From contig NZ_FWXY01000013.1 in the NCBI RefSeq assembly GCF_900176365.1, positions 62,001 to 126,000 of the forward strand: a DNA stretch of 64,000 nucleotides, written 5' to 3'. Shown one piece after another: positions 4,572 to 50,703 of this stretch. The notes below the pieces were generated by a model. That model saw nothing but the letters and a program-made list of their open reading frames with translations. It had not been told where the DNA came from and did not search any database. This stretch comes from Desulfocicer vacuolatum DSM 3385. Lineage in GTDB: Bacteria; Desulfobacterota; Desulfobacteria; Desulfobacterales; Desulfobacteraceae. Each line of letters begins with the position of its first letter. Position 1 is the stretch's first letter. The translations under genes and the position numbers were made by a program.

Positions 4572-5471
4572 ATGAGAATTGTAACCCGGCCCGATTTTGA
4601 CGGGGTGGTATGTGCTGTTTTTCTTTGTGAGGCAGAAAAAATAAATGAACCCATAAAATGGGTGGAACCCAGTCAAATACAAAATAGTTCCATTGAGATT
4701 CGGTCTGGAGATGTTTTGGCTAATTTACCCTATGATCCCCGCTGCTCCCTGTGGTTTGATCACCATGTGTCCAATTCCATGGAAAAGATGCCCCATGGCC
4801 TTTTTCGAATTGCCCCTTCTGCCGCCGGTCTGGTCCATGAGTATTATAAAAAAAAAGGAAAGCTGGATAAGGATTTTGATGAACTTGTGAGGTGGACGGA
4901 CATCATTGATGCAGCCCTGCTGGAAAAGGACCATGTGCTTTATCCTGAAAAATACCCTTATCTTTTGCTTTCCATGACCATCAAAAATCGAAATGGAGCA
5001 GATGCTTCATATTGGGATCATCTGGTTCAATTGCTTAGAAATCATCCCATTGAATTTGTGATGGAAGACCCGCAGGTAAAAGTCAGATGTGAACAGGTGG
5101 TGCAAGAGAATCGGACCTATGTGGATATTTTAAAAGCCCACACTGTTGTGAAGGGGGATGTCTCTGTGACGGATTTCCGGGAGCTTGACATTGTTCCTTC
5201 GGGAAATCGTTTTTCTGTTTATTGTATTTATCCAGATATCATGGCCAGCGTTAAAATACGATACCATGAGCAGGATCGGGATACCACCATTGTCAGCATA
5301 GGGCAGAGCATCTTCAAAAAAGGGCTAAAGGTGAATATCGGGCACTTGCTTTCACGATATGGTGGTGGGGGGCATGCTGGCGCCGGTGGCTGCAGTATGA
5401 AAAGTGATTTTGCGCCTGGCAATATCCGTGAAATCCTCACCATCCTGGAAACCAATGTCCCCTTGACTTAA
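4572..5471 (+). CDS. DHH-family phosphoesterase
   Basis: This is a metal-dependent phosphoesterase of the DHH/DHHA1 superfamily, which includes NrnA-like oligoribonucleases and exopolyphosphatases. Visible motifs are RPDFDGVVCAVFL at residues 5-17 (motif I, Asp ligands), WFDHHVSN near residue 60 (the DHH motif) and a C-terminal glycine-rich substrate loop, YGGGGHAGAGGCSM, near residue 275. The length (299 residues) fits a two-domain DHH-DHHA1 protein. It is cytoplasmic, with no signal peptide. It stands alone between an R2 repeat and the convergent ugpC. Whether it acts on short RNA, pAp, cyclic dinucleotides or another substrate cannot be told here. Confidence 0.8.
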   Translation: MRIVTRPDFDGVVCAVFLCEAEKINEPIKWVEPSQIQNSSIEIRSGDVLANLPYDPRCSLWFDHHVSNSMEKMPHGLFRIAPSAAGLVHEYYKKKGKLDKDFDELVRWTDIIDAALLEKDHVLYPEKYPYLLLSMTIKNRNGADASYWDHLVQLLRNHPIEFVMEDPQVKVRCEQVVQENRTYVDILKAHTVVKGDVSVTDFRELDIVPSGNRFSVYCIYPDIMASVKIRYHEQDRDTTIVSIGQSIFKKGLKVNIGHLLSRYGGGGHAGAGGCSMKSDFAPGNIREILTILETNVPLT

Positions 5472-5561
5472 CCCTGTAGAGACACCTTGTGTCTTGCATG
5501 AAATTACAGAGTGTTTTACCAACAATTAATAGTGATTCAGCCATAAAAAAGTCGAGAGTTG

Positions 5562-5646
5562 TTGATTTATCGTTTATAATTCCATGCAGCTGTTTTTTTG
5601 AGATTATCTTGAGCATACGGTAAGTTTAAATCAGCTCATTCCCTAA
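5562..5646. repeat. R6 palindromic repeat, copy 1 (downstream of ugpC)
   Basis: TTGATTTATCGTTTA at 5562-5576 and CGGTAAGTTTAAATCA at 5618-5633 form an imperfect inverted repeat, followed by ATTCCCTAA. The same arrangement occurs at 6918-7006, so two copies in the same orientation bracket ugpC. Confidence 0.5.
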
Positions 5647-5707
5647 GAAATCAGTTGGTATAAAGGTTTGAAGCCAAAGTCCACTGTGGTGCTGATGGTA
5701 CTGGAAA

Positions 5708-6805
5708 TTAATAGACCACCCGGGTGGACTTGGCATCAAAAATATGCATCTGGTTAAGATTCATGGTAATCTCAATGGTGTCCTGGTGGTTAACCACCAG
5801 GCGGCTTTCACACCGGGCAATGAATTTCACACCTTTTAAATCCACATGGATGTGGGTTTCATTGCCCAGCGGCTCCACTACATCCACGGTCCCCTGGAAC
5901 CGGGCCTCCCCCGGAGCCAGCGTCGTTCCCTCGGTGGGATGAATTTCTTCAGTTCGAATTCCCATGACAAGATTCTGGCCATCCGTTATGTTTCCTCCCT
6001 CCCTTGGGGGGACCGGGATCTCAAGCCCCTTTTCAAAGAGCAGCACAAAATCGTTTTCTTTTTTTGCAGCTTTACAGGGTAAAAGATTCATGGGAGGGGT
6101 TCCAATGAATCCTGCCACAAATGTGTTGGCCGGTTGGGAGAAAAGCTCCATGGGAGTTCCCACTTGTTCAATGTAACCATCCCTTAAAACCACAATGCGG
6201 TCAGCCAGTGTCATGGCCTCCACCTGGTCATGGGTTACATAGATAATGGTGGCGTTTACTCTATGGTGGAGGCGCTTGATTTCCGCCCGCATTTGAATGC
6301 GCAGCTTGGCATCCAGATTGGAAAGGGGCTCGTCAAATAGAAAAACCGATGGTTTGCGTACCATGGCCCGGCCCATGGCCACCCGTTGCCTCTGGCCTCC
6401 TGATAATTCATGGGGTTTTCGGTCCAGCAGATTTTCAAGGCCTAATATTTGAGCCACTTCCTGGACTCTTTCCTGGATTTCGGTTTTGGGTGTTTTGTTC
6501 AATTTTAGACCAAAGGACATATTGTTAAATACATTCATGTGGGGATACAGGGCATAGTTCTGGAATACCATGGCAAGGCCGCGGTCTTTGGGAGCCAGGT
6601 CATTAACCACCTTTCCACCAATGGAAATGGTTCCTTCTGAAATAACTTCAAGGCCTGCCACCATGCGTAGAAGTGTTGACTTTCCGCATCCAGAAGGACC
6701 CACCAGAACCAGAAATTCCTTGTCTTTTATATCCAGATTGATGCCATGTACCACCTCTGTTTTTCCATATTTTTTTACAACTTGATCAAGTTTAAGTTCT
6801 GTCAT
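5708..6805 (-). CDS. ugpC: ABC transporter ATPase of the MalK/UgpC type
   Basis: This is the ATP-hydrolysing subunit of a carbohydrate/glycerol-3-phosphate importer. Walker A is GPSGCGKST near residue 38, the signature is LSGGQRQRVAMGRAM near residue 135 and Walker B is VFLFDEP near residue 155. The D-loop SNLDAKLR and switch His (IYVTHDQVEAMTLADR) follow. The C-terminal 130 residues form the regulatory TOBE domain typical of MalK/UgpC. The 365-residue length is normal. It is transcribed away from ugpB-ugpA-ugpE but is the only ATPase beside these permeases, so it most likely completes that importer. Two R6 repeats flank it. Confidence 0.88.
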   Translation of the reverse strand: MTELKLDQVVKKYGKTEVVHGINLDIKDKEFLVLVGPSGCGKSTLLRMVAGLEVISEGTISIGGKVVNDLAPKDRGLAMVFQNYALYPHMNVFNNMSFGLKLNKTPKTEIQERVQEVAQILGLENLLDRKPHELSGGQRQRVAMGRAMVRKPSVFLFDEPLSNLDAKLRIQMRAEIKRLHHRVNATIIYVTHDQVEAMTLADRIVVLRDGYIEQVGTPMELFSQPANTFVAGFIGTPPMNLLPCKAAKKENDFVLLFEKGLEIPVPPREGGNITDGQNLVMGIRTEEIHPTEGTTLAPGEARFQGTVDVVEPLGNETHIHVDLKGVKFIARCESRLVVNHQDTIEITMNLNQMHIFDAKSTRVVY

Positions 6806-29142: not shown

Positions 29143-29159
29143 AGGTTTTGTAGAGTAAA

Positions 29160-29200
29160 AAACCGCTGCAAAATTATTGTATTTCGCAGCGGTTTTTTTT
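29160..29200. terminator. Bidirectional terminator, fadA / Fe-S selenoprotein
   Basis: AACCGCTGC and GCAGCGGTT form a 9-bp GC-rich stem followed on the plus strand by eight T. On the minus strand the preceding A run (aaaaaacc) gives a T tail. It serves the two convergent genes. Confidence 0.85.
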
Positions 29201-29229: not shown

Positions 29230-30549
29230 TTACATGGCTGATTCCGGATGGAACACATCCACTTCTTTTAAATCGTCTCCCAGATATTCCCGCTCATTGG
29301 GACCCAGAATACCAAGGGAGAGGCACAGCATGGTCCAGAGATGGACAGTTTGCCATGCATGGTCATTGACATCGCTCAGGTCATGCACCTGGGCATGGCA
29401 ATTGTGGCAGGGGGTGATGCAATAGTCTGCCTTTGTTGCCAGGATCTGGTTTGTCTTTGTCTGGCCATAGGATCGTCGCGCCTCGGTGAAGCCAGACTGG
29501 AGAAAACCACCGCCGCCGCCGCAGCAGAAGTTGTTGGATTTGTTGGGGGTCATGTCAATGAAGTTCTCTTCCCCCACCACGGCCTTGACCACAAATCTCA
29601 GGTCATCGGCAACGGGATCTCCCAATGTTTTTCTTACCAGCTGACATGGATCCTGGACAGTGAATTTAATTTTTCTGTCCTTGTTCCAGTCACTACTGGG
29701 TTTGAGTTTTCCTTCTTTGATCCATTTTGCGTAGAGTTGAATAATGCTCAGGATTTCAAACTTGTGCTCAATCTTGAATTTTTTCAGTCCTGCCAGGACT
29801 GCGAATAGTTCGTGCCCTCACTCGGTGTTGAGCCAGTACTTGGCCCCCAGATCGTCCACTGCCTTGGCTTTGGTGCGGACAATTTTTTCCCAGGTCTCAT
29901 CTTCGGCCATGAACATGCAGTAGTTTTCTGCGGCAAAACCTTTGGAGCTGTATGTCCAGTCAGCACCTGCAAGGTGGAGGATTTTCCACAGGGGCACCAT
30001 CTCATCGGGCTCGGTCACCGGTTCCCTGGAGTTCTGGTTTAATACATACATGGCCCCTTCCCGGTTGACGTCGGCTGTCATTTCAGCAAACTCAGGCTGG
30101 GCCTCCTGGTACTCTTCCAGGACATCCTCCACCACAAATTCAAAATCCTCTTCTGTGGCACCCATGGCGCTGCAGGTGTCATTTCGAAGGGCCATATCAC
30201 AGGAACCCACAATACCCTTGGGTTTGTCTTCCCTGGCCCAGGACTGTCTGGCATAAAACACCAGCTGGGGAATATTGATTTCCATGGGGCAGACATATAT
30301 GCATCGCTGACACATGGAACACATCCAGACCCAGTCCGATGTCAGGATCTCTTCATCCATTCCCAGGGCCGCCATTCTCAGAAATTTTCTGGGATCCATG
30401 CCTTCAAGGCCCGTGGCCGGACACCCCGAAGCACATGCACCGCATGTGAGACAGGCATTGAGATTGCCACCGTCAGGCAGAATCTCCATGACCTTGTTTT
30501 TGAAAACACTTTTGTGTTTTCTTCCAATTTTAACCGCTGCTTCACCCAT
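29230..30549 (-). CDS. HdrD/GlpC-like Fe-S oxidoreductase with in-frame UGA (probable selenoprotein)
   Basis: One reading frame runs from ATG 30549 to TAA 29230, broken only by UGA at 29820-29818. Read as selenocysteine (residue 244), it gives a 439-residue soluble Fe-S protein. The N-terminus carries two [4Fe-4S] motifs, CLTCGACASGCP near residue 33 and CSMCQRCIYVCP near residue 77. The C-terminal half has a CCG domain: DPCQLVRK, NNFCCGGGGGF, CITPCHNC. The UGA stands in TE-U-GHELF, where relatives have Cys (TECGH type), a probable ligand of the noncubane cluster. A 6-bp hairpin with loop TGGCA starts 17 bases after UGA, as a bacterial SECIS does. GGAGG precedes ATG 30549. The gene converges on fadA and may carry electrons for acyl-CoA oxidation (inference). 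A conventional caller would report two fragments or a truncated protein. Confidence 0.88.
29785..29801 (-). promoter_or_regulatory. SECIS-like hairpin downstream of UGA
   Basis: On the minus strand CAGTCC-TGGCA-GGACTG forms a perfect 6-bp stem with a five-base loop having G at positions 2 and 3. The loop begins 23 bases after the UGA, within the range in which SelB needs the bacterial SECIS. The hairpin lies inside the reading frame. Confidence 0.8.
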
Positions 30550-30679
30550 GCTTTACGTTCCTCCGTATCCTATTTGTCATTCAAGTGGGTCAAAAGTTTG
30601 GGCGTTTGACGACACTTTTTCCTTGGGCATTTTTATGATTTTTGAAAGGGGTATTCATGGTCGGGCTTTTGGGGAAATA

Positions 30680-49248: not shown

Positions 49249-49408
49249 GAAATACTCCATCAATCTGTTGGAGTATTTCTACTTTTGTTGTGGGCGGAAC
49301 GAGATCAGAATAAGATCCGCCCGTGGCGGTTATATGAAATATTCCGCAAATCAGGGGTGTATTTCAAGCTTTGCTGTGGGCAGGCCGAGGCCAGAATACG
49401 GTCTGCCC
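49249..49408 (+). repeat. R1 hairpin array, locus e
   Basis: beta 49249-49279, alpha GGGCGGA 49292-49298 / TCCGCCC 49316-49322, beta 49336-49365, alpha GGGCAG 49378-49383 / CTGCCC 49403-49408. The period is 86-87 bases. The orientation is opposite to the rdgB and nitroreductase leaders, yet it also stands directly before a gene. Confidence 0.85.
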
Positions 49409-49452
49409 GTGGCGGTTATAAAAAATCATGAATGTCAAAGGAGCCTTTAAAT

Positions 49453-50703
49453 ATGGTCCCAGATGAATCTCAACCCACTGATGTACCCATAATAAAGCAG
49501 ATTCTCAGCCGAAAAATGACGGTGGCCCTGATCATGGGATTTTCCTGTGGTGTACCCCTGCTGCTAACCATTTCTGTGCTCCAGGCCTGGATGAAAAAAG
49601 CCGGGGTTGATTTAACCGTGATTGGCACCTTTTCCCTGGTGGGGCTGCCCTATACCTTGAAATTTGTCTGGGCGCCTCTGTTTGATCGTTTTACCCTGCC
49701 GTTTCTGGGCAGAAGAAAGGGGTGGCTTTTAGTGGCCCAGGTGGCCCTGCTACTCTCCATTGTTCTTTTGGGTTTAATGAATCCTGCCAAATCCCCATGG
49801 ATGGTTGCCTTTGCTGCATTTCTGGTTACCTTTTGCAGCGCCTCCCAGGATATTGTGGTGGATGCCTACCGCCGGGAGGACCTCACTGACAAAGAGCTGG
49901 GATTGGGCTCATCTTTGTATATTTACGGATACCGGGCTGGCATGTTGCTGGCATCGGGGGGCGGCCTTATCCTTGCGGATCACATCTCCTTTTCCATGGT
50001 GTATCTGATCATGGCAGCTTCCCTTATTCCCGGCATGGTGGCAACCGTGATGACACCGGAGCCGGAAAAAGTGTCTGGACAGCCTGACACCCTTGCCCAG
50101 GCTGTTGTTGAACCCCTGCGGGAATATTTTTCCCGGGAAGGTGCTTTGCTCATTCTTTTGTTTGTCATGTTCTATAAAATCGGGGACACCATGGCTTCGG
50201 CCATGACCACCCCTTTTTACCTGGATGTGGGTTTTTCCATGACCGAGGTGGGGGCGGTGGTTAAAATTTTTGGCTTCTGGGCCACCTTGCTCGGTACCTT
50301 TTCCGGTGGAATATTGATGCTGAAAATAGGCATTAACAGAAGTTTGTGGGTATTTGGTTTTCTCCAGGCCCTTTCCACCGCAGGGTTTGCCTGGCTTGCC
50401 GTGGTGGGACACAGCATTGGATGGCTCTCCGGGGTGATTGCCTTTGAAAATCTGTCTTCCGGCATGGGAACGGCTGCCTATGTGGCATTTATGGCGGCCT
50501 TAACCGATAAACGCTTCACTGCCACCCAGTATGCACTGCTCTCCAGCCTCATGGGAATTCCCAGGGTGCTGGCTGCGGCCCCCACGGGATTTTTTGCAAA
50601 GCACCTGGGATGGGAAAGTTTTTTTATCTGCTGCACACTTGCGGCCCTGCCCGGTATGTTGCTTTTGATGAAATGTGCGCCCTGGAACGGTGCAAGGCAT
50701 TGA
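49453..50703 (+). CDS. Major facilitator transporter, AmpG-like
   Basis: This 12-helix MFS protein resembles AmpG muropeptide permeases and related acetyl-CoA-type transporters: GFSCGVPLLLTISVLQAWMKKAGVDLTVIG near residue 25, KFVWAPLFDRFTLPFLGRRKGW near residue 65 and SASQDIVVDAYRREDLTDKELG near residue 120. The length from ATG 49453 is 416 residues. AAGGAG lies nine bases before it; an earlier ATG at 49432 has no site. It may import cell-wall muropeptides for recycling. An R1 array precedes it and an R1 remnant follows. Confidence 0.78.
   Translation: MVPDESQPTDVPIIKQILSRKMTVALIMGFSCGVPLLLTISVLQAWMKKAGVDLTVIGTFSLVGLPYTLKFVWAPLFDRFTLPFLGRRKGWLLVAQVALLLSIVLLGLMNPAKSPWMVAFAAFLVTFCSASQDIVVDAYRREDLTDKELGLGSSLYIYGYRAGMLLASGGGLILADHISFSMVYLIMAASLIPGMVATVMTPEPEKVSGQPDTLAQAVVEPLREYFSREGALLILLFVMFYKIGDTMASAMTTPFYLDVGFSMTEVGAVVKIFGFWATLLGTFSGGILMLKIGINRSLWVFGFLQALSTAGFAWLAVVGHSIGWLSGVIAFENLSSGMGTAAYVAFMAALTDKRFTATQYALLSSLMGIPRVLAAAPTGFFAKHLGWESFFICCTLAALPGMLLLMKCAPWNGARH

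Follow-up and report, generated by a model that had tools for sequence, protein, structure and literature searches.

Does a gene that standard open reading frame (ORF) calling cuts in two encode one selenocysteine (Sec)-containing iron-sulfur protein, and if so, why would selenium be placed where it is? We addressed this for positions 29230-30549, minus strand, of a 64,000-nucleotide stretch of Desulfocicer vacuolatum DSM 3385 (contig NZ_FWXY01000013.1, positions 62,001 to 126,000; hereafter the window). The original prediction had proposed that two apparently separate frames at this locus are one frame broken solely by UGA at 29820-29818, coding for a 439-residue selenoprotein that resembles HdrD/GlpC-type Fe-S oxidoreductases. 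Our analysis indicates that the UGA, codon 244, is very probably read as selenocysteine and that one iron-sulfur protein is made.

One frame interrupted by a single UGA

ORF calling with translation table 11 reproduced the split of the gene, into ORFs of 243 and 131 amino acids. Read-through translation, on the other hand, confirmed a continuous frame of 439 residues followed by a final TAA, in which codon 244 is the only TGA (residue context LNTE-U-GHELF); the mass of the full product is estimated at near 48 kDa. The features of the frame are as follows.

29230..30549, minus strand: selenoprotein coding sequence, 439 residues, with ATG at 30549 and TAA at 29232-29230; homologues are full length across the UGA
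29818..29820, minus strand: UGA codon 244, selenocysteine, in NTE-U-GH
30560..30564, minus strand: GGAGG, read directly from the sequence, a putative ribosome-binding site before the ATG

We scanned the window for frames that a single TGA interrupts, requiring at least 40 codons ahead of it, at least 60 behind it and no overlapping larger ORF, and obtained two candidates, namely this gene and 49285-50700. In the latter, 48 codons precede the TGA and an ATG directly follows it, which resembles an ordinary gene start, and this candidate looks spurious. As this was the only other single-TGA frame in 64 kb, UGA does not appear to be generally reassigned.

Codon 244 in relatives and the selenocysteine genes

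A search of the 5.04-Mb genome recovered all four of the sel genes whose presence the original prediction had asked to be checked, each above its curated cut-off: selA (609.4 bits; cut-off 267.9), selB (380.2 bits; cut-off 242.25), selD (362.6 bits; cut-off 125), which itself contains one in-frame TGA, and the tRNA-Sec gene selC (75.8 bits; gathering score 47). In an order-level sample (E<=1e-60), the family was present in 191 of 242 genomes and 106 of 132 genera and, among the matches listed, every family match contained a TGA, a few with a further stop. One homologue, L062 of Desulfospira joergensenii, is 89% identical. To compare the codon itself, we took from 173 loci the rows that cover residues 40 to 400 (E<=1e-60) and removed identical proteins, leaving 124 distinct rows. 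Codon 244 was UGA in 114 of these, UGC in 9 and UGU in 1; every one of the 10 rows that lack UGA thus has Cys there, as had been expected for this position. Four rows (L123, L154, L150 and L151) have a further stop besides codon 244. At least two changes between Sec and Cys are needed at this residue on a FastTree tree built from the 124 rows.

A covarying SECIS hairpin follows the UGA

A hairpin beginning 17 bases past the UGA had been put forward as standing at the distance of a selenocysteine insertion sequence (SECIS). The stem CAGTCC...GGACTG does begin at the 17th base after the UGA, and an inner T-A pair extends it to 7 bp around the loop GGC.

29785..29801, minus strand: bacterial SECIS (bSECIS) hairpin, 7-bp stem, 3-nt loop GGC (29794-29792), 23 nt from UGA to loop; identified by covariation, loop pattern, a minimum free energy (MFE) of -10.5 kcal/mol and the published model

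We rejected folding energy alone as proof of a SECIS, given that 14 of 200 shuffled sequences folded at least as well (z -1.68). Instead, we aligned the 42 bases from the UGA, without gaps, in 71 distinct UGA rows, where the stem is formed by columns 20-26 with 30-36. Stem cells were paired in 98.0% of cases versus a shuffle mean of 91.2%, and 25 cells had changed on both sides versus a shuffle mean of 5.5 (18 at columns 26-30, 6 at 21-35 and 1 at 22-34). The percentage paired, the both-side cells and the covariation score were each reached by 0 of 500 shuffles; two weaker measures, how many pairs had changed on both sides and how many pair types occurred, were reached by 7 and 6 of 500, respectively. 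When the stem partners were slid, at most 42.1% paired. Since such shuffles are blind to relatedness, the Cys rows provide the better control: all seven stem pairs are present in 101 of the 114 UGA rows and six in the other 13, versus 1, 2, 3 or 5 of the seven in the 10 Cys rows. The Cys row with five pairs, L159, stands above the other nine and could represent a recent change from Sec to Cys.

The loop fits N1-G-[G/U]-N-N2 in 71 of 71 rows, N1 and N2 being paired (three times as G-U), and this pattern is given for bacterial SECIS elements in the accessible part of a 2026 selenoprotein catalogue (PMC13188914). The bSECIS model described there has a loop of 3-9 nt, a stem of 4-16 bp, a G in the first two loop positions, a spacing of 16-37 nt from the UGA and an MFE of -7.5 kcal/mol or lower; the present element, with a 3-nt loop, a 7-bp stem, G first in 71 of 71 rows, 23 nt and -10.5 kcal/mol, lies within all of these limits. 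A search of the window with Rfam gave no match above gathering score. Together, the UGA and Cys codon counts, this hairpin and the sel genes back the claim that the gene encodes a selenoprotein, and on comparative grounds they make selenocysteine incorporation all but certain. Two of the conditions that the original prediction had named as refuting it, an absence of sel genes and an absence of Cys at the aligned position, have thus turned out in its favor.

Architecture and fold of the protein

Pfam placed Fer4 dicluster domains at about residues 29-92 and one CCG domain at 297-388, with Fer4_8 and CCG over cut-off. An alignment of 51 rows showed invariant Cys at 33, 36, 39, 43, 77, 80, 83, 87, 117, 211, 244 (Sec or Cys), 302, 342, 343, 381 and 384. 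Three parts of the protein can be marked out.

30289..30453, minus strand: HdrC-like part with two CxxCxxCx3C motifs (C33, C36, C39, C43; C77, C80, C83, C87) predicted to bind two [4Fe-4S] cubanes; Pfam Fer4, all eight Cys invariant, HdrC chains matched in the PDB
29812..29919, minus strand: degenerate first CCG half, C211 to H246, with Sec244 and His246; C211 and N241-T242-E243-C/U244-G245-H246 invariant, aligned with Cys581-Pro-His583 of EtfD
29398..29646, minus strand: complete second CCG motif (C302, C342-C343, C381xxC384) predicted to bind a noncubane [4Fe-4S] cluster; Pfam CCG, invariant, aligned with the second half of HdrB

Going by these invariant motifs and by solved relatives, the protein most likely holds two cubane and one noncubane [4Fe-4S] clusters. 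The two complete CCG motifs of the double-noncubane HdrB/HdrD type are not found; the second alone is complete.

An AlphaFold model (predicted local distance difference test 86.7; predicted template modelling score 0.86) was best matched by VIA-align to EtfD of Mycobacterium smegmatis (9ojn; Z 23.6, 370 residues, root-mean-square deviation 2.9). HdrB chains matched at Z 19.2 to 19.8 over about 250 residues, and other matches included the Helicobacter pylori protein 3kwl (Z 19.3) and LutA 9a6l (Z 18.5). Judged by this model, the window protein is a soluble fusion of HdrC-HdrB type whose fold comes closest to those of EtfD and HdrB. Residues 14-436 of the model align with EtfD 284-751, leaving no room for an N-terminal membrane part like that of EtfD; its absence was read from this coverage and no transmembrane predictor was run.

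The best NCBIfam matches were all below their equivalog cut-offs: HmcF (NF045711, 153.3 bits against 750), TmcB (NF045724, 136 against 735) and DsrK (NF045796, 109.5 against 400). The GlpC model TIGR03379 scored 34.1 bits against a cut-off of 279.9, and therefore the traditional name GlpC (anaerobic glycerol-3-phosphate dehydrogenase subunit C) was rejected as a functional name. Of the description as an HdrD/GlpC-like Fe-S oxidoreductase, the likeness to HdrD holds and the protein belongs to the group that the literature calls GlpC, but GlpC is here a mere label.

Sec244 at the apparent site of a lost cluster

The structure of EtfD allowed us to place Sec244. In the accessible text of that study, the first CCG cluster, D1, a linear [3Fe-4S] cluster, is bound by Cys503, 538, 581 and 584, and the noncubane cluster D2 by Cys637, 672, 673, 709 and 712 plus His583 (PMC13083937). 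Profile alignment to 9ojn placed 244-G-H246 on Cys581-Pro-His583, residue 163 on Cys503, W198 on Cys538 and residue 247 on Cys584. In the 51 rows, the last three positions carry K/R/Q, W and E/S/V/D, respectively, and residue 244 would therefore be the sole survivor of the D1 ligands. The proposal that the UGA stands at a cluster-ligand position therefore needs correction: residue 244 aligns with the D1 ligand Cys581, but the residues opposite the other three ligands are not Cys, and it is the second half of the protein that contains a complete CCG motif. From these comparisons, Sec244 appears to occupy a former cluster-ligand position in a degenerate first CCG half, two residues from His246, and His246 should cap the retained noncubane cluster as His583 does in EtfD.

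The first half is no less conserved than the second: the mean frequency of the top residue is 0.820 in the first and 0.808 in the second, and 32 of 97 and 52 of 140 columns, respectively, reach 98% or more. Among the conserved stretches of the first half are the blocks NQNSREPVTEPDE, WTY and NTE-U-GH. This speaks for an active or binding site that has been kept rather than one that has decayed. The first of these blocks, residues 171-183 of the window protein, is nearly invariant in the family, and its tested residues differ in a TmcB-like protein encoded in the same genome. That protein shares 13 cluster Cys with the window protein, as well as W198, T199, C211, E243, G245 and H246, but has Cys in place of Sec at 244.

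Locus and genomic context

The window gene is apparently monocistronic, being convergent with a thiolase gene and divergent from a gene for an HrpA-type helicase (DUF3418).

29157..29198, minus strand: terminator-like hairpin between the selenoprotein gene and the convergent thiolase gene; MFE -24.6 kcal/mol, z -9.14, 0 of 200 shuffles as good

This hairpin was seen by folding and missed by a simple terminator scan; a promoter scan near the gene found 4 candidates versus 3.4 expected. The original prediction had noted the position beside fadA. The thiolase gene, however, is convergent and separated by the terminator-like hairpin. A search of the flanks of 79 relatives (E<=1e-20) returned matches to the divergent hrpA-type helicase but none to the fadB- or fadA-like proteins of the window, and we accordingly rejected fadA as a functional partner.

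Among these 79 loci, at least 20 have an hrpA cluster upstream on the opposite strand, and at least 30 have one or more of hdrA, metF and metV within the flank, one of which also has hrpA. In another 26, none of hdrA, metF, metV, hrpA and parA was found, and in 4 only parA was. These counts are lower bounds because many contigs end within the flank. In members of operon type, the gene is found with hdrA-like, mvhD-like, metV (DUF5981) and metF genes. Tandem Sec copies occur in Desulfamplus magnetovallimortis (L058:3223-4539 and 5001-6317; 75% and 92% identical to the window protein) and in L059 (74% and 87% identical).

Paralogues in the same genome

Family members in the D. vacuolatum genome at about 51% identity or more comprise three with Sec and two with Cys. 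One Sec copy, on another contig, is about 70% identical to the window protein. After the C75 Sec copy come genes for an HdrA-like protein (1478 aa), an mvhD-like protein, MetV and MetF. The mvhD-like gene (L141:3728-4150) has an in-frame TGA in CCQYU and is a probable second selenoprotein gene of this cluster. Just upstream of the Sec paralogue lies a second, more distant gene of the methylenetetrahydrofolate reductase family (L141:10052-10972; PF02219, 63.1 bits). The Cys copy C18 is preceded by an HdrA-like gene that ends in a VhuD-like part; neither likeness reaches its curated cut-off. Downstream of the Cys copy C54 come one unassigned ORF and then genes for a double-cubane reductase and an activase (L140:13176-17067); the former is over the cut-off for double-cubane-cluster anaerobic reductases (NF040772), the latter is an acyl-CoA dehydratase activase, and the Cys branch may perhaps use another electron acceptor.

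An arrangement with hdrA, mvhD, metV and metF, as expected of an HdrBC equivalent, is thus found for the C75 paralogue and part of the relatives, and not for the window copy. The C75 context suggests an HdrBC-like role, and since this paralogue is encoded with these four genes, such members probably replace HdrBC in a complex. A known counterpart is the MetFV-HdrABC-MvhD methylenetetrahydrofolate reductase complex, which is reportedly that of Moorella. The genes hdrA, mvhD, metV and metF, which match this complex, accompany the C75 paralogue and many of the relatives. The difference is that these have a fused Sec protein in place of separate HdrB and HdrC, and the window copy has no such neighbors. 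Separate HdrB and HdrC are tabulated for that complex in the accessible text of PMC6085437 (citing Mock 2014).

Comparison with known systems

The protein family is already known, and the window gene is a well-supported new member of it. As far as its accessible text goes, the 2026 catalogue lists a selenoprotein family "Fe-S oxidoreductase-like, PTHR43551, UGH" (GlpC) (PMC13188914), and the family is described in operons with hdrA and frhD/G/A (PMC1794560; PMC13188914). The window protein shares with it the UGH motif, Sec, the kind of protein and an origin in the Deltaproteobacteria; it differs in being encoded outside such an operon, alone and divergent from a helicase gene. We place it in the family by motif and Pfam domains, with NTE-U-GH in an Fe-S oxidoreductase. 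The accessible text of PMC2702500 presents HdrD4 of Desulfobacterium autotrophicum HRM2 as a selenoprotein that has domains homologous to HdrC and HdrB and lacks a transmembrane part. It resembles the window protein in these respects and, going by that description, is probably another member. For Desulfococcus multivorans, the part of PMC5109826 available lists five Sec genes, with the GlpC/UGH family not among them.

TmcB, HmcF and DsrK gave the best NCBIfam matches of the window protein, which nevertheless falls far below their equivalog cut-offs. EtfD has the best-matching fold, in its soluble part, with Fer4 and CCG parts, but differs by its N-terminal membrane part with heme b and by Cys where the window protein has Sec. 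HdrB and HdrC of HdrABC (5odc) are likewise among the best fold matches, yet HdrB has two complete CCG motifs to the one of the window protein, and again Cys for Sec. In the portions of the literature that our search reached, we noticed no biochemical study of the family and no paper on its metF/metV link or on the lost-cluster site, for which we claim no priority.

Weighing the explanations

Taken as a whole, the explanation that we favor, and consider likely, is that of a soluble HdrC-HdrB fusion selenoprotein in which Sec244 is redox-active beside the noncubane cluster and electrons are exchanged with a flavoprotein partner. SelB and tRNA-Sec would decode UGA 244 as directed by the hairpin, its loop 23 nt further along, and the comparative evidence for this step is strong. 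Electrons would move between the flavoprotein partner (of HdrA type in operon members), the cubanes and the noncubane cluster, and a thiol/disulfide or cofactor site next to that cluster would form the other end of the path. Standing alone at the lost first CCG cluster site, two residues from a capping-type His, Sec244 is most likely a redox-active selenolate that replaces the Cys of TmcB. Operon-type fused Sec proteins probably take the place of HdrBC in a complex, and the window copy would be a stand-alone version.

If the UGA were a true stop, the gene would be disrupted or would code for two separate proteins, as the output of the ORF finder indeed suggests; but Cys 302, 342, 343, 381 and 384, all downstream of the UGA, are invariant in the 51 rows, and the same UGA in 114 of 124 rows, the SECIS covariation and the sel genes make a stop very improbable indeed. 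Decoding of the UGA as another amino acid, through a reassigned code or near-cognate read-through, would equally leave the frame open, and it is scarcely credible when the aligned residue is Cys in 10 of 10 rows without UGA and a complete hairpin accompanies the UGA rows. A further alternative accepts Sec and makes it a direct Fe-S ligand, either of the second-half noncubane cluster or of a remnant cluster in the first half held by C211 and non-Cys ligands. The pairing of residue 244 with the D1 ligand Cys581 and the invariance of both C211 and residue 244 speak for such a role; still, the partners of Cys503, Cys538 and Cys584 are not Cys, and the noncubane cluster by homology already has five Cys and a His, and we regard direct ligation as unlikely.

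Several observations weigh against the explanation that we favor. The pairing of Sec244 with Cys581 comes from one weak profile alignment (24.1 bits, E 1.5e-4), and Foldseek ranked HdrB chains first (E 3.5e-5), with 9ojn absent among the best 50 matches listed. The homologue set is skewed to close relatives because the searches kept the best loci. RNAalifold recovered only the inner four stem pairs from the alignment, and the seven-pair stem was therefore counted explicitly. Lastly, none of the hdrA, mvhD or met genes was found among the eight neighbors scanned around the window copy, so that its partner is deduced from a paralogue that is 59% identical.

A more far-reaching version of the redox-active selenolate remains tentative, and we hold it as a possibility on the doubtful side: Sec may have turned a lost Fe-S site into a catalytic selenolate that acts on or binds the noncubane [4Fe-4S] cluster. 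The result would be a selenium-tuned site of heterodisulfide-reductase type that acts as the HdrBC equivalent in the electron-bifurcating methylenetetrahydrofolate reductase complexes of sulfate reducers, while the window copy, standing alone, would work with another partner.

What the analysis provides is the restoration, as one gene, of a sequence cut in two by standard ORF calling, and with it a cleanly supported member of a selenoprotein family that is widespread in sulfate reducers. Read against the EtfD structure, the family poses testable questions: why Sec sits at precisely the position left by the lost first CCG cluster of heterodisulfide-reductase-type proteins, and whether members of the family substitute for HdrBC in the complexes of one-carbon metabolism.
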